This document shows, piece after piece, positions 1-47,953 of a stretch of 47,953 bases of DNA (its first letter is position 1; every line of letters begins with the position of its first letter). The stretch comes from Cytauxzoon felis (taxonomy: Eukaryota > Apicomplexa > Aconoidasida > Piroplasmida > Theileriidae), in the NCBI GenBank assembly GCA_020283715.1, contig JAIQCW010000179.1:1-47953 (forward strand), read 5' to 3'. Both the position numbers and the translations under genes were made by a program. The notes below the pieces were generated by a model. That model did no database searches, was not told where the DNA came from, and worked only from the letters and a program-made list of their open reading frames with translations.

Positions 1-120
1 AAAGGTGGAGGTAATGGGGATGTAACCTCGAGTGGAGATACCCGAAAGTGATCTATGGGAGCTGGAGGGGGAAGTAAATAGAAGAAGCTCTCTGCAAGAG
101 AAGGAGAGGTTGATTGAAAC
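1..120. repeat. Modular element 1 (right part, gene 1 intron)
   Basis: ACCTCGAGTGG, a GATC module, ggggaagtaaatagaag arm, CTCT-TGC-AGAG hairpin. Left part outside the window; precedes the acceptor at 181. Confidence 0.8.
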
Positions 121-181
121 TCTGTGTATTAGATAAAATATCAATTATGTTGTTTTATATATGAAATAATATGATGTATAG

Positions 182-1995
182 AGGACGAGTGATGAGATGG
201 AGTTATTGCGTACATTGGTTGAGATGTATATGGAGAAGACATCTGTGATAGATTTACCGGGTATAAATATAGGTGATGGATTATTGACGGATCGTAGTGT
301 TGTTGTTGTAGATGATTATGATAGATTATTTGTAAATAAAGAATATAAATTATTGGATATATTAGGTTATTTAGAGGTTATATTTAATTTAATAACTAAA
401 GAATATTATGATTTGATATTAAATTTAGAAATTGATACACAATATAATAAAAGTAATACCGAACAAGTACTTACAAATGCATATTATCTTATACTTTATA
501 TACATCAATTATTAATAGAAATGAATAAACCATTATATGAAATTAATGTATGTTTATATTATCTTATTATTTATTATTATTTAGTCATTCGATCGAGATT
601 ATAATTTACAATTCCAAATCTGTATCTATTATCGTTGCAAAATCATCATACTTAAACTATTACTCAATATCATCAAATTCAATATCGCAAATAATATCAA
701 TGATTCCGCAGATTACTGCTTCAATTGGCTCATCATTTTCACCAAGGTATCCTATACATATCCACTCCACTCGAGGTCCATCCACCTGAGGTCGTCCTGC
801 CGTCAGCTCTTCTATTTACATCCCCTCGGATTCCCAAAGATCATCCTCGGTATTTGTCTACCCGGAAGAACGTAAATATGTTAACCCCTAAGAACAAGAA
901 TTCTACCCGGAGGAACAGACCCCCACCTGAGGTCCAATCAACCTTATCTTCCACTCGGTGTGGAGCCTCTTCCAATTACTTATCTCTAAAGAGTAAAGCC
1001 ACTCCCGGAGATCGTGGCGACAATAGTACAGGACCTCAAGTGGAATACCCGTAGCTGATCTCAGGGAAGCGGAGGGGGAGGTAAATAGAAGAGCTGACGG
1101 CAGGACGAAGAGAGTTGGTTGTAACCTCAGGTGGAGTAGATATCATTTCATTGATTGATTATATAGATGGGTGGTGAGCCTTATAATATAGATCGTAGTG
1201 TAATATTGGAGGATTTGGAGGATGTGAATTTTAATGTCCATGTTGATGAATGGTATAAGATTAATAATAATTGGTATAATGAATTGTTATATTTATGATT
1301 ATAAATTCAGGTTGAAATCTGAGATTACACAGATTAAATCTGTTGTTATCACTAATGAATCTGTATGTTGATTTATTATATAATTATAATTAATATTAGA
1401 ATAAACAAGTTAATCAGAATATATTGTAAGTGATTTATATAATATTATAAAATATTATTGTTCAATTAGGAAAATAAAAGAGGTTACTGGTATAGATGAT
1501 ATACAATTGATTAAAAAATATTTATCAATACATGAGAATGATATAGATTCTACTATAATAGATTTAATAAAAAATCATCCAAGTGAGTTTAATATAATGA
1601 AATATTTCTTTTTAACAATTCCATTAGATAAAAATGTTAATGTTATAAGTTCTATAAAAAAACCTGTAGAAGGATTTTCATTATCATATTTACCAAATAA
1701 AAATAAACAAGTTATAATGAATTATTGGTTAGTTGAATTAAGAATTATTATTAATAGATATAGGGATTTTATAAATAAAGAAGAAGAAGAACAAATGTAT
1801 AATGATGATATGGATGATGATATAGATAATATATCACCATTTAATATAAATAATAATGAATTATTAACATCAGATGATGAAGGTATTATAAAAAATAATG
1901 ATATATCGCAACAACGTGGTAAAAAATATTATAAAAATAAAGAATATAATAAATCACATTATGATAATCATCATAGAAGAGATAGGTTAGTATAA
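182..1995 (+). CDS. CUE-domain protein, possibly ASCC2-like (5' end outside window)
   Basis: Exons inferred at 182-547, 585-746, 1167-1285, 1311-1362, perhaps an 8-nt exon at 1418-1425, and 1470-1995; the frame is kept across each junction. The first visible exon follows an acceptor at 179-181 and an element (1-120), so earlier exons lie outside the window. The last exon begins with a segment that looks like a CUE ubiquitin-binding fold (KIKEVTGIDDIQLIKKYL, then a helix ending STIIDLI), followed by an acidic tail and a basic end (HHRRDRLV). In ASCC2, a ribosome-quality-control/DNA-alkylation-repair cofactor, a CUE domain is likewise followed by an acidic and then a basic tail; that is my best guess, but the N-terminal part is not recognised. 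A 368-bp element fills the intron 747-1166. The 25-nt intron at 1286-1310 is among the shortest here. Confidence 0.5.
767..1134 (+). repeat. Modular element 2 (intron 747-1166)
   Basis: The fullest copy: CCACTCGAGGT start, CTG-CCGT-CAG hairpin, GATC arm, accgggaagaac-type core, second CCACCTGAGGT, CTCT-aa-AGAG hairpin, GCCAC...GTGGC hairpin, second arm, ACCTCAGGTGG end. The left and right outer blocks form a 27-nt perfect inverted repeat (tcgtcctgccgtcagctctt...). Confidence 0.9.
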
Positions 1996-2165: not shown

Positions 2166-4527
<2,362 letters not shown>

Positions 4528-6306: not shown

Positions 6307-7685
6307 TTAGCAAAACTTATTGAAACCTTGACATGGTTCTAGTAAAGGATTTCCGCCAACTCTAGTTGATGTGTTTATATTTAGAGACGTTGTCATTGGA
6401 TTTGCGGTATACTGAGTTGCTTTATCTTTCAATGATTTTGCAATCGTTAAAAATGCCTAGAAATTTGAATATAAGAATAATTAATATATATAATAGCGAC
6501 ATTAACACAAAACAAAACTCAAGGATAACCAAGGAATGAACGACTCTCCACTTGAGGTCCAATCCACCTCTCTTCCTCTTGCAGACAGCTCTTCCAATTA
6601 CCTATCTCTAAAGAGTATAGCCACTCCCAGAGATCGTGGCGGTGAGAAGTGTAGTACTGGACCTCAAGTGGAACACCCGCAGCTGATCTCAGGGAAGCGA
6701 ATGGGGAAGTAATTGGAAGAGCTGTCTGCAAGACGACCTCAAGTGGAGTGTTCACTACGTTAGTTCGGGTATGAGTATACCTTTTCAACATTACTGGCGG
6801 TTTTGGCTGAAACTTCGATATAGTTCATGTTATTTGAATCAGCGAGTGCTCTTGCCTCTTCGGTGGAGACAACACGGCTATCGGTAAGATCGACTTTATT
6901 ACCAATTAACAATTTACTGACACTAGAAGTAGCTTGTCTGAATAGTATTTATAAATTTTATAATTAAATTTAAATATACTTTTCAATATCTTGTAACCAA
7001 ATTTTAGAAACATTTTCAAATGATAATCTATTTGTAACATCATATACACATAATATACCATGAGCACCACGATAATAAGTCGATGTTATCGTACGAAACC
7101 TCTCCTGCCTATAAATATAAATACAATAATAAGAAATATAAAGATAACCAATCTCATCCACCTGAGGTTACCTCTACCAAAAGTCCAATCCAACTCATTT
7201 TCCCATTGCATGGAGCTCTTCCAATTACCTATCTCTAAAGAGTAAAGCCACTCCCAGAGATCGTGGCGAGGATGGAAGTCATGAGGATGTAACCTCAAGT
7301 GGATTACCCGTAGCTGATCTCAGGGAAGCGGAGGGGGAAGTAAATAGAAGAGGCGCCACGCCTAGTGGAGAGACCTCAGGTGTAGAAGATAGAGATTGGA
7401 CCTCAGATGTGGTATTTGGATGATTGGTTGATTTTGGGATGTGATAGTCATACCCTGCGGTGTCCCAGATTTGTAGTTTGATAGTAACATCATCAATTTT
7501 GACGGTTTTTATTTTGAAGTCGACGCCGATAGTACTCATAAAATTTTCGCTGAAGCTATCATCCTATATGGGTATGAGTTGTTTGAATGATGTGTACTTA
7601 CGGCAAATCTGAGTAGTAGTGAAGATTTACCGGTACCGCTATCACCAATGACTATAATTTTAAATAAATAATTATATTCCTTCAT
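6307..7685 (-). CDS. Rab1: Rab1-type small GTPase
   Basis: Controls ER-to-Golgi vesicle traffic on the cytosolic face of membranes. Exons (minus) 7602-7685, 7454-7563, 6980-7108, 6781-6936, 6307-6456. All GTPase motifs are present: P-loop GDSGTGKSS, switch I with [20 protein letters not shown] (the Q codon is created by splicing 7454 to 7108), GNKVDL and ETSAK-type VSAKTASN. The RabF segment [15 protein letters not shown] points to Rab1/Rab8, and the sequence fits Rab1 best. Introns 7109-7453 and 6457-6780 carry modular elements, both antisense to the gene. The C-terminus reads [10 protein letters not shown], an unusual prenylation end with one terminal cysteine rather than CC; a missed last exon could explain this. 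Confidence 0.92.
6548..6746 (+). repeat. Modular element 5 (Rab1 intron)
   Basis: CCACTTGAGGT ... ACCTCAAGTGG; both outer slots carry the GTCT-TGC-AGAC hairpin and the same CCAATTAC/GTAATTGG spacer, so left and right match. Confidence 0.9.
7158..7412 (+). repeat. Modular element 6 (Rab1 intron)
   Basis: CCACCTGAGGT start, CCAT-TGC-ATGG slot on the left, CCAC-TAGGC-GTGG type on the right; antisense to Rab1. Confidence 0.9.
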
Positions 7686-7925: not shown

Positions 7926-10900
7926 ATGAAATTTAGTTCAAATGAATATAAAAAAATAGATGATGATCAAAATTTATCAAATAATATATATAATTTATTA
8001 AAATCAACACCATTAGTTAGTGTATTACAATCACATACAAAGGTTTGTCTAATTATAATTAATATATATAATTTATAGATATTGACAATAGATTCTACAT
8101 TACCATTACATGTATGCTTACAAGCATTATCGCATTATAGTATGTATTATCTATATCTAATATCTATATTTATATATTAGATAAAGACTTTGTTCTTGTA
8201 TACAATGTCAAATCCATGAAAATTATCGGTTATATTGATGATATATCTATAGTTAATTTTATTAAAAATTTTAAAAAATATTCTAATAATATAACATGCC
8301 ATGAATTCATTAGTTTGTTATCAATTATTTTCACACATCCAATATAACAGATATCTTCGGTAATCATACCTTTCCTACCACACCCGAAGATACCAACGCA
8401 CTAGAAGCATTCAAAACCATACATAATGGAAGGTAAGATAATACCAAAATTGAAGGTCTCACACCTGAGGTCCAATCCAACTCCACCTGAGGTTACAACC
8501 ACTGTTCCACTAGGCGTGGTGCCTCTCCTATTTACCTATCTCTAAAGAGTATAGCCGCTCCCGGAGATCGTGGCGAATATTATGTCTGTTCTTCCGGGTT
8601 AACATCATTTGTTCCTCCGGGTAGAATTCCTGTTCTTAGGGGTTAACATTAAACCGAGGATGATCTACGGGAATCCGAGGGGAAATAAATAGAAGAGCTG
8701 ACGGCAGGACCAAAAGAGTTGGATTGGACTTCATGTAGAATGAATGACAATAATCTTCTGAATAGACTTTATTTTATTTTATTATTTATTTGTTGTAGAT
8801 ATATATTTATATTTTAGGTTATCTCGTTTATTTGTATGGTCTGGTGTTCGTGGAATACCTATTGGTTATGTAACGATATCTTGTTTTTTAAATTTTATAG
8901 TAAAAAATTTATGTGGTAATTTCGATAAATTCGATTATTTAGTTGAATCTATATTAATTAAAGATGAATTTATTAAAATCCCAGCCTATACAACACTCAA
9001 AGAGGTATAATCTATATCATATCATCATATAATCATCATTAGGCAATTGATATCCTAATCAAATGTGATAATGTTCCCGTCATCGATGATCATGGTTTGT
9101 TATTGCCAACATCCACCAGGTCCAATCCAACTCTTCTTCCACTTCCAACTCTCTTCGTCTTGCAGACAGCTCTTCTAATTACCTATCTCTAAAGAGTATA
9201 GCCACTCCCGGAGATCGTGGCGAATATTATGTCTGTTATTCCGGGTTGACGAATTCTGTTCCTCCGGGTAGAATTCTCTGTTCTTATGGGTTAACATATT
9301 TACGTTCTTCCGGGTAAACATACCGAGGATGATCTACGGGAATCCGAGGGGAGGTAAATAAAAGAGGCTCCACGCCTAGTGGCAACGTCAGGAATGTAAC
9401 CTCAAGTGGAGAGCTCTCTGCAGGGGAATTAGAGGTGTACTAAAGGATATTTATTTTCCTTTGTCGTGTAAAGAATAATTATTACAGATAAGATAATTGG
9501 TATATTGACGTGTAGAAAGGTTGTTTATTTTATATTAAGTTATTTTAAGGATAAGGTATGTATAGATTGATCAATTTCTTTAATTACTCTTAGAATCCTA
9601 TCAAATATTCAATAACTGTGGGTGAAGTTATAAATAAAATTGATAGTCAGTTTAAAAGGACTGATTATTCATCATATGTAAGTTGTAGATTTAAATTTTT
9701 AATGTCTTTTATACAGGTTGATGGCAATTTACTCATTAAAAATGCCATGGTTAACTTACTCCTTTCCAATGATCGCATGTTAATATATAATACGTATGTT
9801 TATGAACTTTTATTTATTTTTCAAATGATATGATCATTTGACTTTTATATTTCCCCAATCAATCCCACTCGCACATTTCTGAAAGCTTCCGAATATAATG
9901 ATACATCTCCGTTTTTATCGATGCAAGTGTTACACCTACAGAACAGACTCCTGATAAGGGTGCTTTATATGGATCTGGATCTTCCCAAATTAAAGTTGAG
10001 AGGAAAAATGGTGACGGTACTGAAAATAATCCAGTACCACAATATTATGTAAGATATAAGCATTCACTTAGCGATGGAACTTCTACATTCAAATTAGGTC
10101 TTGTTAGGTATAATGATATTCCATTGAAATTTGCTGAAGAGGCTTCGGGAACTGTTGAAGCAGCATATGTATATTATAGTCAAACTGGAGATGATGATCA
10201 TCAATTTCCTCTAATAGTTTGTGTTAAAGTATCTGATACTGATATTAGATATTATGAAAGGGGGAACCAATGGACACGTATAACAGATCCCAAACTTGAT
10301 AATAAAAACCCGGAAACTTTAACCACTGGTAATGGCCTCGATACACTTGAAACTAATCTTAATGCTGTTAAAGCGAAATTTGAGGTTAAGCTCGAGAATA
10401 CTAGTCAATACCCAGCAAATCCTTCTGGCAATCAAATTACTGTTACAGCAGTAAATGAAAGCAATACACAGGGTACTCCTCAATTTAAAGGTTTTAAACA
10501 CGATGTTGGTAATGGCAATACTATAAATCTTGTTACTATACACAATCAACCTATAGTGGCAACACCAGAAATTGATGCAACTGTACTTTCTGGTAAAAAA
10601 TTTGTATTTGTATATTTTGCAATGGCGGATGCTAATGATAAACGTGAGAAACCTCTATTGATATGTTTGGCTGTGAGTGATAGAACGGCTGATCCTGGCA
10701 ATATTTGGTATAAGCGGACTTATGATAACGCAAAGAGGATATATAAGTGGGAGAAGGAAGAATCTCTATTTGAAACTATATCACCAGGTGGATCAAATGG
10801 TGCGACAATTGAACAAAACCTTAAAGATCAACTCACTTCAATTAATGGGAAACTTGCTGGTGATCCAGGTTATATTAAACCACAATATATTGTAAAATTG

Positions 10901-13352
10901 GATTATGTTCCTGCAGGCACTGATAATATTACATATGTAACGGGTGATAATAATGATCCTAGCAAGAGAGTAATTACTGTTTCTAAAGTTGAGAGTGACA
11001 CAACTAAAGGAGTACCACAAGATTATATTCGATATAAGCATGCACCAAGTAGTGGTACATTCACATTAGGCTCAGTTAGGTATAATGATATTCCATTGAC
11101 ATTTAAAGAGCCTCATCCAACTGATGATGTTACAGCAGTTTTTGTATATTATAAACAAAATGATGACCCTAAGCATGAGTTTCCATTAATTGTTTGTGTT
11201 GATACGGGTACCTCTACTAGGAAATATTATAAGAGGGGGAACAAGTGGACAGAAGTTACTGGTGAACTTGCTAAAAAAGACCCGGAAAGTGCTGAAGTTG
11301 CTCCTCTACTTAGCGGTCAATTTACTACACTCATCCAACAATACGAAGTTAAACTTGGGGAAACTAGTCAATACAAAGCACGTCCCGATACAAGTGGCAG
11401 CGGTCAAGATATTACTCCTCAAAAACTAGCTGCAAGCGACGGTTTTAAAGGTTATAAACATCTGATTCCTGGAGCTAGTGGTGGAAAAATAAATTATATT
11501 TCAATATACAATCAACCAATAAGGGGTGTTACCGATGTACAGAATGGTAAAGGATTTCCAACTCAGACCGGAGGAGGCTTGTTCGTATATTATGTTGAAA
11601 TAAATAAGCCTTTATTGATATGTTTATCTCCAACCGGTGGAGCTAGTGGAGATAATATATGGTATAAACGTATGGGGAATACTACATGGCAAAAAATCAA
11701 TGGTGATAAAAGTTATGAAAGTATAAATCCAGGTACAAGCCCAATTGATTCTACACTTGTGACGAAACTCCAAGGAATTAAAACTGAACTTGGTGATAAA
11801 GATGAAGGTTATAAAAAACCAGATTACGTATTAAAATTAGATTATGTTGCCAAGAGTGATAGAAATCCTATTAAATATATAACGGGTAATAATCCTACAC
11901 CTTCTAATAGGGTAATTAATGTTGAGAAGACAGAGGGTAGTAGTGATCCTGAAAGTAAAGTACCCGAAGGATATGTGAGGTATCAACATAGTTTTTCTAC
12001 TATTAATGAAACTATTATATACAAACACAATGGAATTCAATTGACATTCGATCAAGCTCCTCCAGCTACAGGTGTTACAGCAGTTTATGTATATTATAAG
12101 GATGGTACAGACAGTAATCATCAATTCCCATTAATTGTATGTGTCGTGACTGGAACAACTACTAGGAAATATTATACTAGAGGTCAAACGTGGGCTATAG
12201 GTGACCAAAAACTTAACAATGTAGATCCAGATGATGCAGCTACAGCTGGTAGTTCCAATGGTCAACTTGCAATTGAACTTAATGAGCTCAAAGATATACA
12301 TGAAATTTTACTTGATAACACCGGGTCTGGATACAAAGCTAATGCGGGTGGCACAGACATTACTGTTGCGAAGCAGGTTGGAAGTAGTTCTGATAAAAAG
12401 GTACCTGAAGGATATGTGGCATATAAACATAGCAGTACTAATGCCATCAGTACAGTCAAATTTAAACATAACGGTATGGAACTTAAGGGATTACCTACTT
12501 CAGATGTAACTATTGATAATTGTGATAAAAAATTATGGGTATATTATGAGCTAGAAAATGGTAATCCTATTATCGAGAAACCATTATTAATATATGTTAA
12601 AGAGGGTAGTACTGATACATGGTATCATAGGGGTCTTGAATGGAAAGAAACTACAAAAGTTACAGGAAATCCAAATACTTCTACTCCTAATGGCCATGAA
12701 GCTGGACTTGATAATTATATTAGACAATTTGATTTTAATGAATTGAGATTTAGTAAATATAAAACCCTACAATGGCTTCCCATTTTAATACTACAACACC
12801 AAAATTATTACCGAATGTATTTGATTTGCAGGAGCAGGAGCGCAAATACAATCAGACGCAGATAATAGTATAAGGGCAACATCCCCTAGTGTAACACCTA
12901 CAACTAAAAAAGGCAGATACACCGATCCAAAGGATAAAAGTTATCATGCTACTGAAACTACTGACGGTGAACACAAGCCGTTTTTAGTTGATGGTAGAAC
13001 ATCTGGTAGAATAAATTTCAACATTCCAACCTTCAACGATGATATTCCTTAACCATTTTTCGTTCTTCTGAGTATACATACCGAGGATGATCTACGGGAA
13101 TCCGAGGGGAAATAAATAGAAGAGCTGACGGTAGGACCAAGACAAGGTGGTTGTAACCTCGAGTGGAAAGGCAAGAAGACAAGGTAGAGAAGACAGAGAT
13201 TATATTTCGGTAGAAAAGCGAGTGGAATTGAATTGTAGGAATTGACAATTACATTTTTTTATTTTTGATATTAATAAATTTATATTTATAGGGGTGGGAG
13301 GGATCGTGTATTGACGGTATGGGATATGGTAGATTATATGATTGTAAAATAG
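7926..13352 (+). CDS. CBS-domain protein (AMPK gamma-like) with an antigen-bearing intron
   Basis: Repeated CBS motifs, which in this family bind adenine nucleotides: exon 7926-8042; exon with TIDSTLPLHVCLQAL then VLVYNVKSMKIIGYID; the exon from 8818 (GVRGIPIGYVTIS); LKEAIDILIKCDNVPVIDD joined to KIIGILTCRKVV; ITVGEVINK; and finally LLSNDRMLIYNT joined to GGRDRVLTVWDMVDYMIVK at 13292-13352. At least three CBS units are visible and four are likely, as in AMPK gamma/SNF4. Introns 8433-8817 and 9095-9487 hold elements. The last intron, about 9799-13291 (3.5 kb), holds the antigen-like ORF; the splice from ...AAT AC to G GGT restores an exact CBS beta-strand, so the final exon belongs to this gene. 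Orthology to AMPK gamma is inferred. Confidence 0.85.
8460..8738 (+). repeat. Modular element 7 (CBS gene intron 8433-8817)
   Basis: Contains the core direct repeats (TGTTCTTCCGGGTTAACAT, TGTTCCTCCGGGTAGAATTC) after the GCCGC...GTGGC hairpin, then the GATGATCTACGGG arm. Confidence 0.9.
9113..9440 (+). repeat. Modular element 8 (CBS gene intron 9095-9487)
   Basis: Positions 9181-9351 are identical to 40921-41091 in element 31. Sense to the host. Confidence 0.9.
9902..13052 (+). pseudogene. Antigen-like repeat ORF lying inside a CBS-gene intron
   Basis: Open from 9902 (stop just upstream, no ATG until 10124) to 12865, then continuing in a shifted frame to a stop at 13050-13052. Two related units alternate about three times. 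Unit A has YNDIPL, VYVYYK, FPLIVCV, RKYY.RG..W; unit B has YNQPI, FVYF, KPLLICL, IWYKR. The tyrosine/tryptophan pattern resembles secreted repeat proteins of Theileria (FAINT/DUF529-like), a resemblance only. The end, FAGAGAQIQ...SGRINFNIPTFNDDI, also occurs in the minus-strand copy at 16137-17966. No start codon or signal peptide, and a frame break near 12830-12850, so this looks like a 5'-truncated fragment rather than an expressed gene. It is followed at once by an element arm at 13061. Same strand as the host gene. Confidence 0.75.
13061..13213. repeat. Modular element 9 (arm after the CBS-intron antigen)
   Basis: Starts nine bases after the antigen stop with cgttcttctgagtatacat, then GATGATCTACGGG arm, CTG-CCGT-CAG slot and ACCTCGAGTGG. 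No clear left arm was found upstream of 9902. Confidence 0.8.
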
Positions 13353-18000: not shown

Positions 18001-18636
18001 AGTAAATAGAGAAGGCCACCACGCCTAGTGGAAGGAGAGTTGGACTAGACCTCAGGTAGAGAGGCTGGACCTACGGTAGGGGTAACCTCAGGTGGAGACT
18101 TAACGGTCATCGATTGAGCATTGGGTATAGTATTTACTAGATTTTTTCATATCAACAAACCTCTCTGATCCATGTGGAGACATCTAGTTCGACGGTATTA
18201 TTGGGATGGAATTCGAGTAGAACTTGTAGAGCAGAGAGTGGTGTACCGGCCTGTATATATGAATAATATGATTGTTTGTATATACTTGACATGAGAATAG
18301 CCATGGTAATGTGAGTGATGATTCATCTTCGATGACATTTAATTCATCTGAGTTGATAAGAGTATGGAATGAGATGATTAATTACTTGGTACGGTGAATT
18401 CTTCATTATTATCATTATTTTTATTAAGGATATATTGTTCGAGATTAATAATTCTTCTTTCTAGTCTTAATTTTTCTATATGGATAAAAAATGTGTAGAG
18501 ATTTTTGTTGTCTATAGTAACCTTTTTCAAGATTTTGTAGACCATCATTAAGTTCTTTAACAATAGTGAGTAAAGGATCATATTTTGTGATTATAAATGA
18601 TTCTAAATCATTAGTAGTAGAATTATCATTAGTCAT
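15011..18636 (-). CDS. Conserved protein of unknown function, coiled-coil N-terminus
   Basis: ATG 18636 gives MTNDNSTTNDLESF, then a coiled-coil-like stretch (LNDGLQNLEKEKLRLERRI) formed by splicing out a 45-nt intron. Later exons give ELNVIEDESSLTLPWLF, AGTPLSALQVLLEFHP, ENMWISLLEELT, SLLSITVDPSEMRELHNL, ARKILLEMAKNEILIVLRNV, ASAMSEAWK, SMGRVSLVLEG and, after an element-bearing intron (15076-15514), ENIGTRLRAGTKRF. I do not recognise the family. The intron 15939-18170 (2.2 kb) contains antigen-like DNA between two element arms; the phase on both sides is compatible with splicing it out. Its stop (15011-15013) is four bases from the stop of the facing gene. Confidence 0.6.
15146..15471 (+). 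repeat. Modular element 11 (intron 15076-15514)
   Basis: Two nested halves: CCGT-slot arm then CCAC-TAGGC-GTGG slot; its internal hairpin is CCAT-aa-AGGG, an unpaired intermediate variant. Ends ACCTCAGGTGG. Confidence 0.9.
15994..16136. repeat. Modular element 12, left arm
   Basis: CCACTC start, GTCT-TGC-AGAC slot, arm ending gatcagctacgggtt, then the core motif caactcggaagaac abutting the antigen end. Confidence 0.85.
16137..17966 (-). pseudogene. Antigen-like gene fragment with frameshifts, inside an intron
   Basis: Reading on the minus strand from 17966: an ORF to about 17591 (ATG at 17959), a frame change, a segment with VKYVYVYHFGGIPILVCV and YKYFKP (like the units of the 9902-13052 ORF), another frame change near 17070, an alanine-rich stretch, then FAGAGAQIQHDA, a third change at an A8 run near 16350, and the end GRINFNIPTFNDDIS. 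The three frame breaks make an expressed product unlikely unless the homopolymers are misread. It lies between element arms 15994-16136 and 17967-18095, on the same strand as its host gene. Confidence 0.75.
17967..18095. repeat. Modular element 12, right arm
   Basis: Starts tacccgtagctgatctc flush with cargo, then a CCAC-TAGGC-GTGG-type slot and ACCTCAGGTGG. Confidence 0.85.
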
Positions 18637-30330: not shown

Positions 30331-30635
30331 CCACTCGAGGTCCAATCCAACTCTTTTCGTCCTGCCGTCAGCTCTCCACCTGATGTTACAGCCTCTGATC
30401 CCACTCGGCGTGGAGCCTCTTCCAATTACTTATCTCTAAAGAGTAGAGCTACTCCCATAGATTTTTGCTTGTGGTCCTCCCGGAGATCGGACCGTCAACT
30501 ATTAAGTACTGGACCTTGAGTGGAACCCGTAGCTGATCTCAGGGAAGCGAAGGGGGAACTAAATAGAGAAGCTGACGGCAGGATGAAATAAGGTGGAGGA
30601 GAGTGGATAAAGTATAGTGTTTGGACCTCGAGTGG
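30331..30635 (+). repeat. Modular element 23 (intergenic)
   Basis: Lies between the convergent PSMD5-like (+) and ACSL (-) stops; the GCCAC...GTGGC hairpin is interrupted by about 20 bases. The rest of 30278-30781 is AT-rich spacer. Confidence 0.85.
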
Positions 30636-35357: not shown

Positions 35358-36756
35358 ATGACATCAGATAATGAGGTTTTGGATAATTTAATGTTAATGT
35401 TAATCCAGAAGGCTGGAGGTGTTGAGGAATTACTGGAGACATTCTTCTCATTCTTGGGTAGAAGGACGGATTTTTTTTAAGCCTCCCGATCATATCAATC
35501 CGAATCATTCACTGGATCACTGCATCAAGCTAGTTACAAAGTATTGCAGACAGGCTGGTGCTATCGCTATAGAAAAAAGGAGGAAAGAGGAAGAGGAAAA
35601 TAAAAATAGGTTAATGACAACAACAAATGGAACCAAAAAATTATCAGATAATGATTGTTGTTCAGTTCAACATCCCAATGGTTCATTACCGATGCATGAT
35701 AGATCGTCGGCTCATACTAAATCCGATATTCACTCCTCCTCATCCTCTAAAAGTGACAAAGACACTGTTATTGATGGTAATGATGATGTAGATAGTGAAG
35801 TTAATGATGTGCCTGATAGCGAAGACGGATCTCCACCATTAGGTAATGGAGGATCCACCGAATGGTATGTTTGATGTTTAGCGCATATTGAATTAAATTC
35901 CACAGGTATACATGGACTCAAACATTAACATCATTAGAAGTAATGGCTAAAGTACCACCAGGAACATCAAGTAAAAGCGTTAAATTAAATGTTACACCGA
36001 GTAAATTACACGTTTTTGTCGATGGTGTTGAATTGTTCGGTACGTTTTACATACGTTAAACCAATCTCTAACATATTTCAACCCTGTCTTTACTAGCCTT
36101 GGAGGCTCTACACCTGAGGTCCAATCCACCTCTATTCCACTGGCCGTGGTGGCTTCTTCCAATTACCTATCTCTAAAGAGTAAAGCCACTCCCGGAGATC
36201 GTGGCGATAAACCCGTAGCTGATCTCTGGGAAGCGAAGGGGGAGATGAATATAAGAGCTGACGGCAGGACCTCAAGTGGAGTGGCAAGTAGAAGGAGAGG
36301 CGTTTGACTTTCGGTAGACAATTATTTCGATGATATTTCTATTGATGTGTTTGTTATATGAATTTATAGGTGGTGAATTGCATGATTTGATTAAGAGTGA
36401 TGAGTGTTTATGGGTATTGGTTGATGGTAAGACATTACAAATATCATTGGAGAAGAGGAATGGTATGCATTGGTGGCCATGTGTAATTAAGGGTCATGCT
36501 GAGATTGATGTTAAAACTATAGTACCAGAGGTATGTATATATATGAATTGATGATAACATATTAATATAGAACTCTAAATTAGAGGATTTAGATCCTGAA
36601 ACTCGTGCTACTGTCGAACGTATGATGTTTGACCAAAGGCAAAAAGCTGCTGGATTACCAACTAGTTCACAAAGTTCACAATATGAAGCGTTTCAAAAAT
36701 TCAAAGCTGCACATCCAGAATTAGATTTTTCTAAAGCAAATATAACGTATTCTTAA
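35358..36756 (+). CDS. NUDC: NudC, with an apparent frameshift at a T8 run
   Basis: Dynein/HSP90-associated cochaperone with a CS domain. ATG 35358: the N-terminal motif GGVEELLETFFSFLGRRTDFF is the NudC signature. The frame then stops at TAA just after eight Ts (35471-35478); the +1 frame continues with KPPDHINPNHSLDH, a charged linker, YTWTQTL, HVFVDGVELF joined to GGELHDLI, WVLVDGKTLQISLEK, MHWWPC, and the NudC tail (SKLEDLDPETRATVERMMF, DQRQKAAGLPTS, DFSKANI). One T too many or too few explains everything; either a sequencing error or a real lesion. The intron 36040-36369 holds an element in sense orientation. Confidence 0.9.
36108..36318 (+). repeat. Modular element 28 (NudC intron)
   Basis: Sense; CCAC-TGGCC-GTGG slot left, CCGT slot right. 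Confidence 0.88.
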
Positions 36757-38755: not shown

Positions 38756-38818
38756 GAAATAAATTGTACATACCATTAATGATATAAACATATAATACAA
38801 CATTAAGATTTAATTCAT

Positions 38819-41800
38819 CTAAAACTTAAAGTGATTTGGACACATGAATTTTTCTAATACTTTATCATCAACTTTTTTTCTACATTCCTAAAATTATAAA
38901 AATTTTCTATATAAAATTTTTTATAAAAAAAGTACCTGATGATTTAATATAATTGGAGTAATTAAATCTATTAATTTATTTTTAACTTCACCGGTTAACA
39001 TTTCACCAGATGAATATTTTTTTGTAATTTCATCAAGTAATTCATCATCATCTAATAGATAATATAAATATTGATATGATACATCAACATCTAAATTAGC
39101 ACCTAAACGTCTATGTTCTTCTGCTGTATCACGACCACCTATTTAATAATATAAATTTATAAAATATAAAACAACACACCACTAAATGCATATTTATTTA
39201 TCTTCTTACGTATCATCTCTGGTGTATCAGTAACAGATATTACAGAACCCTCAAATGATGAACTCATCTTAGTAGATACACCCAATAATGATGGTATAAA
39301 TTTAGAATGTATCAACGCTGGCTTATGAAAACCTAATTTAGGAGCCAATCCACGAGTCAAACGAAAAAATGGATCCTGATCAATACCCTAAAAAATTATA
39401 TGTATATCAAATATATACATCTTCCACTCGAGGTCCAATCCGCCTTTCGTTCCACTCGCCGTGGAGCCTCTTCTAATTATCTATCCCTAAAGAGTATAGC
39501 CACTCCCGGAGATCGTGGCGGAGGTGTGGATTGGACCTCAAGTGGAATACCCGCAGCTGATCTCAGGGAAGCGGAGGGGAAAGTAAATAGAAGAGGCGCC
39601 ACGCCTAGTGGGAAGAATGTGTAGTGGATTGGACCTCGGTGGATCAGTCATATACTTTTTCGTATAAATTCGTGGTATTTGTATGTTATAACAAACCTGT
39701 GGTATGAGGCACATCATATTTTGATCATCGAAGAGTGTTGGGAATGATTGGCTGAATGCGGCGGCTCCTTCGATGGTTGGGAATGCGATCATGCCGATAT
39801 TGGTGGATAAATCGAAACCGAATGTACCTTTGACTTGATTAAATGGTGTTTTCTTTTGCATTAATAATGATGTTTTATAAAGATGAGTAATATAATCGGT
39901 ATTACGGAATATGAAAGTAAGATCAGGATCAAATCCACAAGCGATAATATCTTTAGCATTTTCAAGTGATAAATTACGTACATATTCGAGATCTAATTCT
40001 TCTCTAAATAGAAATTTTTCATCGTCCGATAACATAATTACTACTGGTACTTTAAATGCTTTTTGTAACCAACATGTAAATATAAATGGTATTAAATGAC
40101 CCAAATGTAATGCTTCCGATGATGGACCACGACCAGTATAAATATAAAATTTAGAACCCCTCTCATACATATCCAACATCTCATCCAAACCACGATGACA
40201 AAAAAATAAGCCACGACGTAAAAATGGATGCAATGGCATACCAACCAACCTTTCCATGCTATAATTTTAAATTTATAATTATATAAACAATAAGTACACA
40301 ACAAGAAGTTAACTCCACCTGGGGTTACAATCATCCCCTCTTTCCCACTCGCCGTGGAGGCTTCTTCATTTATTCATCTCTAAAGAGTAAAGCCACTCCC
40401 AGAGATCGTGGCGGAGGTAATGATGTAACCTCAAGTGGAAAACCCGCAGCTGATCTCAGGGAAGCGGAGGGGGAAGTAAATAGAAGAGGCGCCACGCCTA
40501 GTGGAAGACAAGGAAGTAACCTCAGGTGGGAACGATGTTTTATAATTTGTGGATAAACGTACCGATCGAGTAGTTGTTTATTGATGGGTGTACAACCGAA
40601 TTTTTTGATAAGTTTGTCATAGTTGATTGTTTGTGCAGATCTGCCTTCACCTTTACCGATATTGAATAGACTTTCAAATTCTTCATAATCTAAATCAACT
40701 TCACCAGGTGGTAATACATTTACTTTAGTAGGGCAATTTTCCGGATCAAATACCTCTAATTCATCACATAATACCTCTTCACCAGGAACAACTTTAAAAT
40801 TCAATATCAGCTAGAAAATTATAAATTGATGTTAATAAAAATTAATTTATATATCTGTACTCGAGGTCCATCCTTCTCTTCTACATCATTGTCTTTGTCT
40901 TGCAGACAGCTCTTCCAATTACCTATCTCTAAAGAGTATAGCCACTCCCGGAGATCGTGGCGAATATTATGTCTGTTATTCCGGGTTGACGAATTCTGTT
41001 CCTCCGGGTAGAATTCTCTGTTCTTATGGGTTAACATATTTACGTTCTTCCGGGTAAACATACCGAGGATGATCTACGGGAATCCGAGGGGAAGTAAATA
41101 TAAGAGCTGACGGCAGGACCAAAAGAGTTGGATCGGACCTCGAGTGGAGGGTAGATGTAAAAACATACGAATTTTTGGTGTGGATCGTATTGTATTTTAT
41201 CGATTGATATGGTTTTAATATGTCCAGTGCTTTTTAATATTTTACCAGAGGTTGAACTAATAGTCCATTCATCTAAAATAACTAATTTCAGCCTAATTTT
41301 AGAAATTTTAATGATAATTTATGTATTTTTATAATAAAATATACATGTTAACTGAGCTTTTAGCTGTATAATCATCTAAAAATGAGTCTCCATAAATGGA
41401 TTCTGCTAATTCACGATTCATATTTAAGACCCTAAAATTAGCATTTTCTGCAATCTAATGATAATAATATATAAGTTTTACTAAAATATTCTAACCTTTT
41501 GGTCTATTAATTGTTTCAATAATGTGTACTGATTGTCTGACGGTTGTTTGTCTAATTTACCAATGGTCAATGAAGCCATGTAATTACCCTAAAAAGAATT
41601 AATATCACATAGGGAAAATTCTACAGTTAAGGTCCTTTGCTTGTCTTCCACTCGATGTCCAATCTACCTTTCTTCGTCTTGCAGACAGCTCTTCTAATTA
41701 CCTATCTCTAAAGAGTGAAACCACTCCCAGAGATCGTGGCGGTGAAGAAGGTAGTGAGTACATGACCTCGAGTGGAGTACCCGGAGCTGATCTCAGGGAA

Positions 41801-42099
41801 GCGGAGGGGGAGGTAAATAGAGGAGCACCACGGCGAGTGGAAAGAAAGGACCTCAGGTGGATCGAGTGGAAGACAGGAAGGAAAATTCGGGATATGGATC
41901 ATTAATGGAAATTGTGTTATTTAACATTCCTTCTAGAATTAAATTTAGAGATCAGATAGTATTGATCGTAAATAGAGTGACTTACAAGTTTTTTTACATG
42001 TTTGGTGGCTCTAGCAGTAGGTATACTGAAGGTTGTGCATACAGCACCTTTAACAATTTGGAGTGAGCTCTCTAAAAAAGAGCAACATAATTCCGCCAT
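38819..42099 (-). CDS. WARS: Tryptophanyl-tRNA synthetase with AlaX-like N-terminal domain
   Basis: Charges tRNA-Trp in the cytosol. ATG 42099 ([16 protein letters not shown]). The first four exons form an extension with [20 protein letters not shown], resembling the AlaX-like domain fused to Plasmodium TrpRS. Then [43 protein letters not shown], the class I signature [52 protein letters not shown], the KMSSS loop ([10 protein letters not shown]), [11 protein letters not shown] and [15 protein letters not shown], ending FMCPNHFKF. Four introns hold elements, all antisense: 39388-39696, 40259-40562, 40811-41168 and 41589-41985. Splicing LLDR|MERLV restores the conserved helix before FLRRG. The divergent ASC-1 gene starts 171 bp upstream. 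Confidence 0.93.
39424..39643 (+). repeat. Modular element 29 (TrpRS intron)
   Basis: Antisense; hairpin CCCT-aa-AGAG, one mismatch, between the CTCT/AGAG and CCCT/AGGG states. Confidence 0.9.
40315..40529 (+). repeat. Modular element 30 (TrpRS intron)
   Basis: CCACCTGGGGT start, ACCTCAGGTGG end; antisense to TrpRS. Confidence 0.9.
40857..41147 (+). repeat. Modular element 31 (TrpRS intron)
   Basis: Contains the 171-bp block 40921-41091 identical to 9181-9351 of element 8; otherwise differs at its ends. Confidence 0.92.
41648..41860 (+). repeat. Modular element 32 (TrpRS intron)
   Basis: GTCT-TGC-AGAC slot left, CCAC...GTGG slot right; antisense. Confidence 0.9.
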
Positions 42100-42269: not shown

Positions 42270-43284
42270 ATGGAGGTAAAAGAGCCTAAACTTATCGCAT
42301 ATCGCAAAGAATCTAAAGAAAAAATTTTAAAGGTTGAAAAAAAGGTAAATAAATCCGAGCAAAATGTGTTGAAGACAAATAAAGTTACACATCAGAAGGA
42401 AATCATCAAAGGTAACGTCAATATAATAAATAATAATTTCTGCATTATATTATAGAACGTGTTAGATGTAATTGTAATGGATATGAGCATGCAACTTTCA
42501 ATAATTGCATGGGATGTGGTAGAATTTTATGTATCCTAGAGGGCGAAGGGAAGTGCCTTAACTGTGGCCATGATGTATTCCCACCTACAATAGAAAAAAT
42601 ACCGAAAGAATATCTCAATGATCCAGAATTCAAAAAAGGTTTGTCTACCATACATATTATCAGATAGCTCTCCACTTGAGGTCCAATCACTACTTTCACC
42701 TCTTCCACTCGGCGTGGAGCCTCTTCTCCACTTGAGGTCCGATTCTCAAGTTTGTCTTGCAGACAGCCTTCTTTATTTACTTCCCCCTCCGCTTCCCTGA
42801 GATCAGCTACGGGTTCCACTTGAGGTCCAATCACTACCATCTCCACCGCCACGATCTCCGGGAGTGGATCTCCTCTTTAGAGATAGGTAAATAAAGAAGC
42901 TGTCTGCAAGACCAACCTCAGGTGAATCGGCGAGTGGTAAGGAATTGTATTGGATCTCACGTAGAACACTCTTTATGTTCCTTTTGACAATATTTCAGCG
43001 TTATTATTGAAGGATCGTTTATTATTATTGGATAAGGAATATATTTCGGAGGGTATGCGTGTGAATAATTTGCGTGGTGGTTGGTTTGAGGATAGTAGAA
43101 ATGTATTTAATGAGAAAAGAGAAGAATCAGAATTAAAATGGAAAGAAGAAGAGATTAAAGAGAAATTAGAATCGGGTTTGTATAATTTTTTACTAAATTT
43201 TTTATTAATTTTAAATTTATAGAAATCAAAAAATACGATCTCGATCTTACTACTGGTACATTTAGTATGACAACTAAACAATAA
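42270..43284 (+). CDS. TRIP4: ASC-1/TRIP4-type zinc-finger protein
   Basis: Homologue of activating signal cointegrator 1. Exon 1 from ATG 42270 is Lys/Glu-rich; exon 2 carries the C2HC5 finger: RCNCNGYEHATFNNC, MGCGRILCI, GEGKCLNCG, i.e. all Cys/His ligands of the ASC-1 family. After the element-bearing intron 42639-42998 follow ALLLKDRLLLLDKEY, GGWFEDSR and a KWKEEEIKEKLE helix, ending DLTTGTFSMTTKQ. The C-terminal ASCH domain of animal ASC-1 is absent. The stop (43282-43284) lies beyond the stop of the convergent DXS gene, so the two coding regions overlap by 11 bp. Confidence 0.85.
42672..42964 (-). repeat. Modular element 33 (ASC-1 intron)
   Basis: Antisense; its right end is mutated (gatctcacgtag); the acceptor used is downstream at 42998. 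Confidence 0.88.
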
Positions 43285-46038
43285 TTTCATCTAATATACA
43301 CTTTATACGCCTAGATAAACCCTCAACATCATATTCCACCAATTCCTTCTGCTCAGATTGAGATGCATGATGAACTATTCTAGATGGATATCTTATCGTC
43401 CTCACCTATATTAATTGTTATACAAAAACAAACACTCCATTTGATATTATAACACTATCTTCCACTCGATGTTACACCTGAGGTCCAATCACACCTCCCT
43501 ATTCCACTCGCCGTGGTGGCCTTTTCATTTACTTCCCCTCGGATTCCCGTAGATCATCCTCGGTATTTGTCTACCGGTAAGGACTGACCTCAAGTGGAAA
43601 ACCCGCAGCTGATCTATGGGAAGCGGAGGGGGAACTAAATAGAGAAGCTGTCTGCAAGACGACCTCAGGTGGAAGAGCTGTCTGCAAGACGGAAGAGAAT
43701 TGGATTGGACCTCGGATGGAAGACTAGTTAATTTCATTATCTAGGGTAAACATACACGTGTATTGATGTTATTATCACTGATATATTCGAGTATGGCTGA
43801 TCCTAGCCCTCCGGTGAGTCCATCTTCTGCGGTGATTATGATTTTATGATTATGTGCGATGTAGTTGATGAGTTTTTCATCTAGAGGTTTGAGGAATCTA
43901 ATATCGACTAATGTACAATTCAAATGATTTAATTCTATAGCGGTTAACATATCGTATAAAATTGTTCCTAATGTTAATATTGCAGCTTTACCATCACCAT
44001 ATCTAATAATACGACCTTTAAATGATTCAATTTCCAACATCAGGTTATTTATAAATTCATTATCAAATTTATTATCCAATAATAAACCATCATCGTTATA
44101 TATCATTATATCCTTAATATCCTCATTGCCGACTAAAATTGTTCCACCAATCGGCGGATATAATGAAACATTATGTGAATATATACCAGGAGAGGAATGA
44201 GACATATATTCATCTTCTTTTCCACTGGCTGTTACACCTGATGTTGTCCTGCCGTCAGCTATTCCACTCGAGATACGATTCTCAACTTTGTCTTGCAGAC
44301 GGCCTTCTCTATTTACTTCCCCCTCCGCTTCCCGTAGATCAGCTGCGGGTCGTCCACTTGAGGTCCAATCACTACCATCACCATCGCCACGATCTCTGGG
44401 AGTGGCATTACCCTTCAGGGATAGGTAATTGGAAGAGGGCTCCACGCCGAGTGGAACAGAGGTTGTAACCTCAAGTGGAGAGCTGTCTGCAAGACGAAGA
44501 GAGTTGGATTGTACATCAGGTGGAACAGCGAGTGGGTGACAGGTATTATTATGATAGATATGTAGTAATTTTTTGTATCCTAGTATATTTGATTTGGGGA
44601 ATCTGATGGCGCAAGGTGAATGATTGATTTTATTTGAGAATTTGATCATGAGTTGTAATTCTAATTCATTACTTGGTGCCATGATGATGAAATTTGGTAT
44701 TGGTCTAAGATAAGAGAGATCATATAATCCATGATGTGATGATCCATCGGTTCCAACATAACCTGCTCGATCTATTATAAATTTAACGGGTGCATTTTGT
44801 AATGATACATCATGTATAACTTGATCATATGATCTTTGTAGAAATGTTGAATATATACAGCAATATGGTTTAATACCACCTAATGCTAGACCAGCAGAGA
44901 ATGTAACAGCATGTTGTTCAGCAATTCCAACATCAAATGTACGATTGGGGTATACTTTTCCAAATTTACCAACACCTGTACCACCAGGCATGGCTGCCGT
45001 AATGGCAACAATTTTATTATCATATTTGGCCATATTAATTAAAGTATTAGAGAATATATCAGTATATGTTAATTTATTAGACTTATTATATACAGAATGT
45101 AAACGATCTAATGAATTTAAAGATAAATTACAATCTTTACCTTTAACAGTCTTTAAATGTATTATGATAGGTCCAATATTTTTATTTTTATTTATAATAA
45201 TGTCATCCTGTATAGCTTTAACTCTTAATAATACCTCATTCAATTCATTTAAATCATGACCATTTATTGGTCCAATTATATTTGGATTTTTAAATTTATA
45301 TATATTTTCATCATTCATAATAAATGAAACTATAGGATTTGTACCACTCACTGATGGTAAACCTGTTGGTAATGATGATTGTTCATTGTCATTATAAATT
45401 ATAATCAATGGACTATTTATACAACAACTATAATTTAATGATTCATAAGCTAATCCAGCAGTCATACCACCATCACCAATTATACAAATATAATTTCTAC
45501 CAATATTATTATTCAATAATAAATCTGCTTCATATAAACCTTGTAAACCACCTATTGATGTTGATGAATGTCCAGCACCAAATTGATCATGTATACTTTC
45601 ATAACGTCTACAATAACCAGATATACCATCTTTTTGTCTAATTGTATTCAATAAATCTCTTCTACCCGTTAATATCTTATGAATATATGCTTGATGACCT
45701 ATATCCCATATTATACGATCATTTGGTGAATTAAATATACGATGTAACATTACAGTCAACTCAACAACACCTAATGAACTAGAATAATGACCACCTACTT
45801 TAAATAATACATCCTTCATATATCTACGCAATTCATTACATAATAATGGCAAATGTCCTTCATCCAATGATTTCAAATCATCCAAACTATTAACTCTTGA
45901 TAAAATCTCATAAGATTTCATATCATTATTATGCATCGATCCATATATACTCATCGGTGCTCTACCAATTTTATATGATTCTATCATCACTGTTAACAAT
46001 AATAATGCGATAATCAATAATTTTCCTACAATCAACAT
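43274..46038 (-). CDS. DXS: 1-deoxy-D-xylulose-5-phosphate synthase, apicoplast
   Basis: First, ThDP-dependent step of the non-mevalonate isoprenoid pathway in the apicoplast. Exons 43756-46038 and 43274-43405. ATG 46038 is chosen: it opens a classical signal peptide (MLIVGKLLIIALLLLTVMIE); the open frame further upstream has no ATG. Motifs: GHYSSSLGVVELT, DIGHQAYIHKILTGR, the ThDP motif GDGGMTAGLAYESLN...NDN, MPGGTGVGKFGK, GIAEQHAVTFSAGLA, DRAGYVGTDGSSHHG, then the C-terminal domain (VDIRFLKPLDE, AEDGLTGGLGSAILEY; last exon RYPSRIVHHASQSEQ). Between the PYR and C-terminal domains a modular element (44222-44537) is read in frame, about 105 residues absent from other DXS. The intron 43406-43755 holds another element. 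Confidence 0.95.
43462..43719. repeat. Modular element 34 (DXS intron)
   Basis: Lacks the CTCT-aa-AGAG part; two GTCT-TGC-AGAC slots in a row at the right end. Confidence 0.85.
44222..44537 (-). repeat. Modular element 35, translated in frame (DXS)
   Basis: CCCT-ga-AGGG hairpin on the minus strand; encodes SNYLSLKGNATPRDRG and [16 protein letters not shown], inserted between enzyme domains. Confidence 0.92.
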
Positions 46039-46216
46039 TAGTAAACTTACTGCATTAATAATCTCTCTCCATTCTACAAAAAAAAATGATATATAAATGA
46101 TACAACACAATAATGAATACCATGAAAAAATCACAACACAATAATATAGACGATGATCAAAATTCCACAACACATTACATTATTCATTATATAATTAATT
46201 TCAATTAATCCATATA
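46039..46216. promoter_or_regulatory. Shared divergent upstream region, DXS and MIP
   Basis: Only 178 bp separates the inferred starts of an apicoplast gene (-) and a mitochondrial peptidase gene (+), so both promoters must lie here or overlap coding DNA. No named motif seen. Confidence 0.4.
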
Positions 46217-47953
46217 ATGTTAAATTTATATCGTAAGCAGATCTGTAATACCATACAGAGGTGTAATTTCACAGTCGGTTCAAGATTATCGCAAATTTAC
46301 AACTGCAGACATATCTCAGTTTTAATTTCAATAAATAATAAATTTTCAAAGTCATATTTTTATTTCAATTTTAATAGACATTATGAAACATCCAGAATTA
46401 TTGATCGCCAAAATGTAGTCGGACTACCTGTAAAGACACCCGAAGATATATCAAATTTAACGACCTATGTCATCAAAGAATCCGAATTAATGATCAAAGA
46501 ATTGATCATCAATTATAATGAAAGTGGAATAATCTCCAAAAATATACTAACAGTCGTCGATAGAATCTCCAACTTACTCTGCTCCATCGCAGACCCCGCT
46601 GAACTCCTAAGGTAAAAACACAAAAAATAACCACGACTGATATTTTGTTCTCCACCTGAGGTTAGAACTATTGTTCCACTCGCCGTGGAGGCCTCTTCTT
46701 ATTTACTTCCCCCTCGGATTCCCGTAGATCATCCTCGGTATTCCACTTGAGGTCCAATCACTACCTTCTCCACCATCGCCACGATCTCTGGGAGTGGCTC
46801 TACTCTTTAGAGATAGGTAAATAGAAGAGCTGGCGGAGGACTGACCTCTAGTGGAGAGCTCCATGCAATGGAAAATATGGATTCAAGTGCAAGACACCGT
46901 TTCAGTTATTAATTAAATATTTATAGACATGTTCATGTTGAAGAGGATTGGAGAGTTGCTGCGAGTGCTTGTGTAGAACGTATATCTGAGTTTATAGGTC
47001 ATGTTAATATAAATGAGGAGGTACGTTTATGTTTTTATGTATTGATTAAAATGAATTTTAGTTGTATAAACTTTTAACTGAGAATTATGAAAAGGATTAT
47101 CAATCATTAAATTATGAAGAACGTTTAGTATTAAAGCATATGATAGAATCCATGAAACATCAAGGTGTAGGATTACCTGCCAATGAAAAAGTAAGTCCAA
47201 ATAAAAAACTCACTGAATCCGATGTGAAGTAAACATGAAGTAATCCATGCCTATTGGAAAGGATTTACAATCACTCATCACCCTTCTTTCCACTCGACTC
47301 CACCTGAGGTTACATTCCTGCCGTCAGCTCTTCTATTTACTTCCCCCTCCGCTTCCCTGAGATCAGCTGCGGGTTCCACTTGAGGTCCAATATACAACAT
47401 TATCGCCACGATCTCAGGGAGTGGCTCTACTCTTTAGAGATAGGTAATTGGGAGAGCTGACGGCAGGACCAAGAGAGTTGGATTGGACCTCAGGTGGAGG
47501 TCTGTTCTTCCGGGTTAATATATTTTTTTAGGAGCGGTATTTGTCTTTACAAGGTGAAGAATTATCTTTATCATTTGAAATTTCAAGTACAACGGCATTG
47601 AAACATCTAGCAATTCCGGAGTTTCCAGCGAATCCTCTAATTTACATTCATACATTGAGGTTGTTTGAATTGATCATATCATTTCTATTATTCCCTTAGA
47701 TATTCACCTGATTCAAGGCTTAGGGAATATGTTTGGTATTCACAAAGAAGAAGCAACGTGGTTTGTTATTGTATAAGTAATATCGATATATTATAGGAAC
47801 TATTGGATAAAATTTTAAACCTTAAAAATGTCAGAACTGAACTTGCCCAAATGAGGAATTTTAATACTTACACAGAATACTCACAAAAGTTTGTTTTTTT
47901 CACAACTATAGTAATAATTCTAGCTCACAATCCACCCGAAGTCCAATCCAACC
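46217..47953 (+). CDS. Mitochondrial intermediate peptidase-like (M3), 3' end outside window
   Basis: Metallopeptidase that trims a few residues from imported mitochondrial proteins. ATG 46217; Arg/Lys-rich, Asn/Ser-rich N-terminus (MLNLYRKQICNTIQRC) fits a transit peptide. Family matches: VGLPVKTPEDISNL, VDRISNLLCSIADPAELLR joined to HVHVEEDWRVAAS, LYKLLTENYEKDYQSL, ERLVLKHMIESMKHQGVGLP, LSLQGEELSLSFEIS. The HEXXH catalytic exon would lie beyond the window. Introns 46612-46926 and 47191-47531 hold elements, both antisense to the gene; a third begins at about 47930. Some thimet-oligopeptidase relatives share these motifs, so MIP rather than another M3 member is likely but not certain. Confidence 0.75.
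46652..46871 (-). repeat. Modular element 36 (MIP intron)
   Basis: CCACCTGAGGT start; ends with an extra CCAT-TGC-ATGG slot; antisense. Confidence 0.88.
47290..47519 (-). repeat. Modular element 37 (MIP intron)
   Basis: CCGT slots match on both sides; ACCTCAGGTGG then a single core motif (tctgttcttccgggtt). Antisense. Confidence 0.9.
47930..47953. repeat. Modular element 38 (start only)
   Basis: CCACCCGAAGTCCAATCCAA at the window end matches the start of other copies. Confidence 0.7.

Follow-up and report, generated by a model that had tools for sequence, protein, structure and literature searches.

Modular palindromic elements densely dispersed in the genome of Cytauxzoon felis, found in introns and, very probably read through in frame, in exons

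Contig JAIQCW010000179.1 of the Cytauxzoon felis assembly GCA_020283715.1 was analysed over its entire 47,953 nt (hereafter, the window). It carries genes for DXS and tryptophanyl-tRNA synthetase (TrpRS), several further large open reading frames (ORFs) and many copies of a palindromic element. The initial annotation, made from the sequence alone, had counted about 38 loci, one per about 1.3 kb, sharing end motifs, GATC-centred arms and short hairpins. Clustering of the end motifs and GATC-centred cores yielded 39 element clusters, one per 1.23 kb, which together occupy 16.6% of the window (Table 1), and all of these components were present as described. The end motif CCACCTGAGGT, with at most one mismatch, matches 76 times in the window versus 0.31 expected, a number reached in none of 100 shuffles. 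In a 240-kb sample consisting of the window, contig C4 and 70 kb of contig C8, motif clustering delineated 164 clusters, or 12.3% of the sequence. Across the genome (8.62 Mb, 181 contigs), we counted 3,508 exact end motifs, 2,489 copies of the core M1 (CCACTCCCRGAGATCGTGG, 19 nt) and 1,853 of the core M2 (CCCGYAGCTGATCTCAGGGAAGCG), versus 1, 0 and 0 matches, respectively, for the same patterns written backwards; each unit contains several end motifs, so that only the core counts speak for copies, as lower bounds. The repeat family is thus confirmed and is larger than first noted.

In the orientation of M1, the full unit consists of the end motif T (CCACYTGAGGT), a linker, a hairpin cassette, CTCTTCCAATTACC, a covarying hairpin, M1, a variable linker, the inverted end motif t, M2, GAGGGGGAAGTAAATAGAAGAG, a second hairpin cassette, a linker and a final t. 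Terminal inverted repeats are evident in 75 of the 164 clusters, which start with T and finish with t. Single complete units span 198–282 nt (n = 13), the longest (doubled) cluster reaches 478 nt, and other variants are halved or contain alternative GATC modules. The gap between M1 and M2 ranges from 7 to 104 nt, and M1 is exact in 85 of the 108 cores found with up to four mismatches, a degree of conservation that is partly ascertained, and hence inflated, by searching with the cores. The 5′ cassette comes in seven types and the 3′ cassette in six; the pairing of the two cassettes within one copy shows no agreement beyond chance, both ends being of the same type in 21 of 88 copies versus 19.6 expected. 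The hairpin cassettes are independent modules that have probably been shuffled between copies.

One hairpin of the unit covaries: CTCTAAAGAG is swapped in other copies for CCGTAAACGG, CCCTGAAGGG or CCCAAATGGG. Pairing is retained in 433 of 444 stem cells, compared to a mean of 375 (maximum 391) when the 3′ arms are redealt among copies and 208–271 when the arms are slid; kinship of the copies inflates such counts, yet both sides of the stem differ among four types. In the coding frame, such replacements change the encoded peptide, for example, from SLKS to PVNG, which indicates a constraint or a copying process acting at the level of the nucleic acid. Both copies that were folded are more stable than their shuffles (z −3.7 as DNA for window positions 44233–44523 and z −6.1 as RNA for 40315–40529). 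The hairpin variant CCGT/ACGG is favoured in exonic copies (13 of the 36, a set in which 15 copies come from selected loci), whereas CTCT/AGAG dominates among the non-exonic ones (65 of 86). A second, nested hairpin module, TCTACCCGGAGGAACAG / GTTCTTCCGGGTTAAC (CCGGGT/AACCCGG), occupies window positions 8555–8680, 9202–9400, 19565–19581 and 40942–41100; its first string has 63 exact copies genome-wide. The module is also open in frame in the ORF at 18684–20537, and a search of the protein collection with its peptide (1 candidate) gave no match.

The copies had been considered largely intronic, and this holds for the three that could be read against conserved genes. Two introns of the TrpRS gene contain one antisense element each, and as read from the sequence, the donors and acceptors lie outside the element in both cases (GTACGT...TATAG around cluster 32 and GTTTGT...TTTTTTAG around cluster 31); an additional intron, also read from the sequence and likewise with an antisense copy (cluster 36), is found in the DXS gene. 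By this reading, the splice sites of the two TrpRS introns are native and not supplied by the element. Such copies would be removed by ordinary splicing.

A different picture emerges for 5 of the 35 classified window clusters, which sit in continuous open frames and are probably exonic. The element had been described as devoid of coding capacity; indeed, no reverse transcriptase or transposase of its own was seen, but one sense frame lacks built-in stops and is open through the host ORF in these five clusters. Throughout the 240-kb sample, about a fifth of the copies (19 of 100; 25 of 135 clusters) look exonic, sense and in frame, so that the family is in part probably protein-coding and its characterization as intronic and non-coding is incomplete. 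Among 100 M1 copies with at most one mismatch, 23, 19 and 14 are open for at least 150, 300 and 450 nt, respectively, on both sides in one sense frame; the two remaining sense frames yield none, and the antisense frames (three together) yield 3 at 150 nt and none at 300 nt. Openness alone is an unfair test of frame, because the other frames hold stops within the element. When flanks were measured outside the element (100 copies with at most two mismatches), 19 copies had both flanks open for 240 nt in some sense frame, and in 15 of these both flanks were in the frame of the element, where about 2 would be expected; 14 of the 19 are open throughout in frame. In five copies both flanks were open antisense, sharing one frame in two cases.

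Codon usage, trained on 37 long ORFs, assigned coding flanks on one strand to 51 of 135 clusters, 36 sense and 15 antisense. Of the sense clusters, 22 are open through and were called exonic, exonic status being assessed in the sense frame only; the 29 non-exonic clusters with coding flanks comprise 14 sense and 15 antisense. As all 22 exonic clusters are sense, orientation looks free outside exons and fixed within them. Three of the remaining 84 clusters are exonic by openness, which brings the total to 25 of 135. The spacing between M1 and M2 preserves the frame in all 10 exonic copies that contain both cores, compared to 24 of 45 others. Thus, across the sample, exonic copies follow a rule of one frame and one orientation.

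Several exonic copies are predicted to interrupt conserved enzymes without breaking their frame. The insert in DXS (cluster 37) sits between the Pfam domains Transket_pyr and Transketolase_C; the aligned stretches end at residues 534 and 715, which correspond to chain residues 523 and 533 in a DXS of solved structure, and the insert is absent from all five piroplasm relatives aligned. For glutamate-cysteine ligase (L025:8066-10000), the equivalent residues are 229 and 385, opposite chain residues 222 and 252. A GTPase ORF (L026:5392-6744, minus strand) has two elements between its G1 motif and the conserved segment that follows (residues 92 and 398 versus 187 and 192). In DXS and glutamate-cysteine ligase, and more weakly in the GTPase, conserved segments flank the insert on both sides within one ORF. 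Twenty ORFs, drawn from 29 exonic rows that include some duplicates, were compared to Pfam, and seven contain known domains (LCCL, WD40, Beta-lactamase, GCS, G-patch, GTPase and DXS). Translation of these copies would add a polypeptide segment to the host protein.

Evidence of expression comes from the surface antigen cf76. The element peptide of window cluster 16 (66 residues) matched only Cytauxzoon felis cf76, in two entries with E about 2e-17, among the 107 candidates of a search of 5.8 billion proteins restricted to 0.55–1.75 times the query length and to shared words. The genome from which the window derives encodes cf76 at 100% identity (723 of 723 residues). According to Tarigo et al. 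(2013, PMC3748084), the 2,172-bp ORF and its fragments were amplified from C. felis cDNA, the RNA having been DNase-treated and checked by PCR for DNA; the gene was called single-exon, the protein has 723 aa, and the genome-sequenced isolate has a slightly larger form. The genomic ORF, 2,172 bp including the stop and hence identical in length to the cDNA ORF, holds two elements, and the reverse primer of fragment 1 and the forward primer of fragment 2 both lie inside element 1. The presence of the element in cf76 cDNA is therefore supported by a published experiment. The C-terminal fragment, reported as the most seroreactive of the three (PMC3748084), contains element 2 according to our mapping; parts of element 1 are found in the N-terminal and central fragments, which react less, so that the element peptide remains only a candidate epitope. 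Between the 723- and 706-aa forms of cf76, element 1 (122 columns) accounts for 50 of the 61 alignment columns that differ and the remainder (495 columns) for 11, with region bounds set by our own judgement. The C-terminal region includes a 30-bp tandem repeat that was single in one of eleven samples (PMC3748084). We observed a repeated EADGRNVTSGG in copy 2.

How the family spreads is less evident. None of the junctions of the 75 complete copies displays a direct repeat of at least 4 nt attributable to target-site duplication, about 4 being expected by chance. A search of the genome for Y1 (REP-type) transposases (Y1_Tnp) returned none, and the reverse transcriptase search (RVT_1) matched only telomerase (L038, G000:C56; RBD and RVT_1 domains), with no element core or end motif within 3.3 kb around that gene. 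Together, these results favour spread and exchange at the DNA level. We propose that copies spread and exchange modules, probably when hairpins prime copying or by gene conversion, the enzymes acting in trans. Exonic insertions that break the frame would then be eliminated by selection, leaving sense, in-frame copies whose translation would add a segment flanked by conserved portions of the host protein, while intronic copies would be tolerated in either orientation and taken out by native splice sites. In a few copies, host flanks beyond the end motifs are inverted-complementary over 14–31 nt (window 21330–21594, C4:101255, C8:27271), a mild excess (13 of 75 versus 5.5 expected at score 10) upon which we do not build. 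Neither Rfam (6 matches up to E 1, none at the gathering score) nor a tRNA search (0 tRNAs) provided an identity or origin for the element in the window, and a COX1 search for the mitochondrion gave no match.

We consider it very probable that these sequences represent a dispersed, non-autonomous, modular palindromic DNA element family of C. felis that is read through in frame in exons. Several observations count against this interpretation. No mobilising enzyme was found with Y1_Tnp and RVT_1, the DDE transposase families not being part of that search, and no empty site or new insertion was seen, mobility being deduced from copy number. The cDNA support pertains to cf76 only and is taken as reported in the published work; furthermore, none of the 61 columns that differ between the cf76 forms falls in element 2 (113 columns). 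The two GTPase pieces match weakly when taken alone (0.099 and 0.0056), and 13 of the 20 ORFs matched no Pfam family. Finally, 4 of the 19 flank-chosen copies do not have both flanks in frame (one upstream only, one downstream only and two neither), and of the 36 clusters flanked by sense coding sequence, 14 lack a frame that is open throughout; we took these to be putative introns.

The most serious competitor, although unlikely, is that we are dealing with ordinary miniature inverted-repeat transposable elements (MITEs) of an undetected DNA transposon, the frame of the exonic copies being accidental. Inverted ends, high number and the lack of coding capacity for a mobility enzyme all agree with this explanation, which is compatible with the exonic facts and differs in mechanism; the missing direct repeats at the junctions do not, nor does the variation of cassettes and linkers around M1 cores that are mostly exact, unlike plain copies of one master. 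In addition, a survey covering 64 apicomplexan genomes, in the portion available, lists neither Class II transposons nor, for C. felis, any transposable element. Somewhat less likely still is a functional chromosomal element, such as a protein-binding or recombination-hotspot array, that is immobile and kept by selection at each site. Core motifs that are nearly invariant in non-exonic copies too, despite the variable M1–M2 gap, and a hairpin maintained by compensatory change would be expected of such an element, but the insertions lie within enzymes and introns at no evident common position, about one in five copies alters a protein, and finding copies by their cores inflates the apparent conservation of the latter.

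It is improbable that the copies are introners, mobile introns with their own splice sites, in which case those within ORFs would be introns with a length that is a multiple of three. Copies do occur in introns, the end motifs hold AG/GT-like letters (CTGAG/GT, CTCAG/GT), and introners, some with terminal inverted repeats, are known in many eukaryotes. Nevertheless, by our own reading, the two TrpRS introns have native splice sites outside antisense elements; all exonic copies read in sense and share the frame of their two flanks, which splicing would not require, and the cf76 ORF has the same 2,172 bp in cDNA and genome. Even more improbable is that exonic copies are transcribed but bypassed by the ribosome. 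Translational bypassing is known from mitochondrial byps, and the hairpin structure and in-gene position of the copies, inserted near a conserved fold as between the GTPase G1 motif and the next conserved stretch, are reminiscent of it. However, bypassing needs no open frame, which was seen throughout 14 of the 19 flank-chosen copies. The absence of stops over 66 nt in exonic copies (0 of 36, versus 7 of 86 others) is circular, since openness defines the exonic set.

The non-autonomous palindromic family shares features with several known systems, which are compared here as far as the available portions of the respective publications describe them. The closest parallel is provided by Rickettsia palindromic elements (RPE) and Wolbachia palindromic repeats, which are palindromic, form stem-loops, are dispersed and lie in frame in conserved genes, and by analogy the family of C. 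felis appears to work like RPE. The latter measure 105–146 bp, compared to 198–282 nt for single C. felis units (partial clusters can be shorter), which are modular, and the C. felis family is eukaryotic and nuclear, with thousands of copies that are also intronic and in both orientations. No relationship to RPE was found in the one element-peptide search (107 candidates), in which RPE sequences were not compared directly. Introners of Micromonas, Aureococcus, Amoebophrya and others likewise form many short intronic copies, with inverted ends or hairpins in some families, but the C. felis element has native splice sites in the introns checked and no target-site duplication seen, and is also exonic; a term search of the main text of an introner survey returned no mention of Apicomplexa, Theileria or Cytauxzoon. 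MITEs resemble the family in their inverted ends, non-autonomous nature and high number and differ from it in that no target-site duplication was seen here and internal cassettes are shuffled; no DNA transposon is reported in the phylum by the sources covered. Palindromic amphipathic repeat coding sequences (PARCEL) are palindromic coding repeats that have spread within genomes, including those of diatoms and prasinophyte algae, but characteristically form tandem arrays, with units of 25 residues, in ORFs to which no function is assigned, whereas the C. felis copies are single or double insertions in unrelated proteins and introns; this distinction is one of layout.

In-frame palindromes in housekeeping genes are known, as far as we found, only from bacteria and an archaeon. 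The mobilome survey, in the portion available, had removed MITE candidates as likely false positives. We found no earlier description of the C. felis family in the literature searched (titles, beginnings of abstracts and passages, with most subscription journals outside), and the remark in the initial annotation that no piroplasm element with this layout is known agrees with that search. As far as searched, the palindromic family is thus undescribed.

The other features of the window are collected in Table 1. Two large ORFs with repeated or cysteine-rich stretches, 9929–12865(+), which weakly matches DUF4973, and 36998–38755(+), which has no match, may perhaps encode lineage-specific surface proteins, although this is a guess.

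Table 1 Element clusters and host genes in the window. Coordinates and calls of clusters derive from motif clustering unless stated; T, t, G, M1 and M2 denote the modules in order of occurrence.
Feature	Positions	Strand	Basis
Cluster 1, partial (t, GATC module)	25..65	.	
Cluster 2, double element (T T t G T M1 t M2 t)	767..1134	+	
Cluster 3	2573..2811	-	
Cluster 4, M1+M2	3749..4032	-	
Cluster 5, complete T-M1-t-M2-t	6548..6746	+	
Cluster 6, complete with one additional t	7158..7410	+	
Cluster 7, nested CCGGGT/AACCCGG module	8461..8680	+	
Cluster 8, nested CCGGGT/AACCCGG module	9202..9409	+	
Cluster 9, partial	13083..13166	.	
Cluster 10, M2 only	14109..14198	-	
Cluster 11, partial	14442..14530	.	
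Cluster 12, double element	15146..15471	+	
Cluster 13, M2 only	16024..16111	-	
Cluster 14, M2 only	17969..18095	+	
Cluster 15, probably exonic, in frame in ORF 18687-20546(-)	19350..19511	-	
Cluster 16, probably exonic, in frame in ORF 18687-20546(-); peptide used as query that found cf76	20014..20204	-	
Cluster 17, flanks inverted-complementary 14 nt past ends	21330..21594	-	
Cluster 18, two alternative GATC modules	23271..23602	.	
Cluster 19, M1 only	23913..24092	+	
Cluster 20	24544..24698	+	
Cluster 21, M2 only	26291..26378	+	
Cluster 22, probably exonic, in frame in ORF 26685-27512(+)	27120..27364	+	
Cluster 23	28608..28842	+	
Cluster 24, probably exonic, in frame in ORF 28895-30274(+)	29678..29904	+	
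Cluster 25	30331..30635	+	
Cluster 26	31168..31394	-	
Cluster 27, complete, antisense to flanking (-) coding sequence	31987..32197	+	
Cluster 28, complete, antisense to flanking (-) coding sequence	32742..32950	+	
Cluster 29	33478..33611	-	
Cluster 30, short-gap form (M1-M2 7 nt)	36110..36279	+	
Cluster 31, TrpRS intron, antisense; acceptor TTTTTTAG/GG outside	39424..39573	+	splice sites read by eye
Cluster 32, complete, TrpRS intron, antisense; GTACGT...TATAG outside	40315..40529	+	splice sites read by eye
Cluster 33, nested CCGGGT/AACCCGG module	40942..41147	+	
Cluster 34, complete	41648..41860	+	
Cluster 35, additional end motifs	42672..42925	-	
Cluster 36, DXS intron, antisense	43462..43719	+	intron read by eye
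Cluster 37, probably exonic, in frame in DXS between Transket_pyr and Transketolase_C	44234..44523	-	
Cluster 38	46652..46854	-	
Cluster 39, complete	47300..47497	-	
Host gene, DXS exon with cluster 37 in frame	43741..46173	-	
Host gene, TrpRS exon; ORF end runs into the intron with cluster 31	39538..40257	-	

Whether this family is the first RPE-like one in a eukaryotic nuclear genome is, in our estimate, an even bet, RPE-like being understood here as dispersed palindromes that sit singly and in frame within unrelated conserved proteins. It would be a parasite at the DNA level that survives in exons by virtue of one stop-free frame in one orientation and shuffles cassettes between loci, so that unrelated proteins, including a surface antigen, share and re-edit the same extra peptide. 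If so, the joint change of hairpin arms in exonic copies despite the resulting amino-acid changes would imply that the inserted peptide is dictated by the structure of the DNA and not by the function of the protein. The apicomplexans covered by the available portion of the mobilome survey are poor in mobile DNA and C. felis appeared to be without any, yet about an eighth of the sampled sequence belongs to a single repeat family. A eukaryotic case in which one family occupies both introns and exons would make it possible to study how selfish DNA can last within coding sequence and by what route it moves. Gene models of C. felis will be in error if they take the inserts for introns or vice versa. 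For cf76, a vaccine-candidate antigen, roughly a quarter to a third of the length, by our own bounds, is element-derived peptide, and because this peptide recurs in other ORFs, cross-reactivity of antibodies is a concern.

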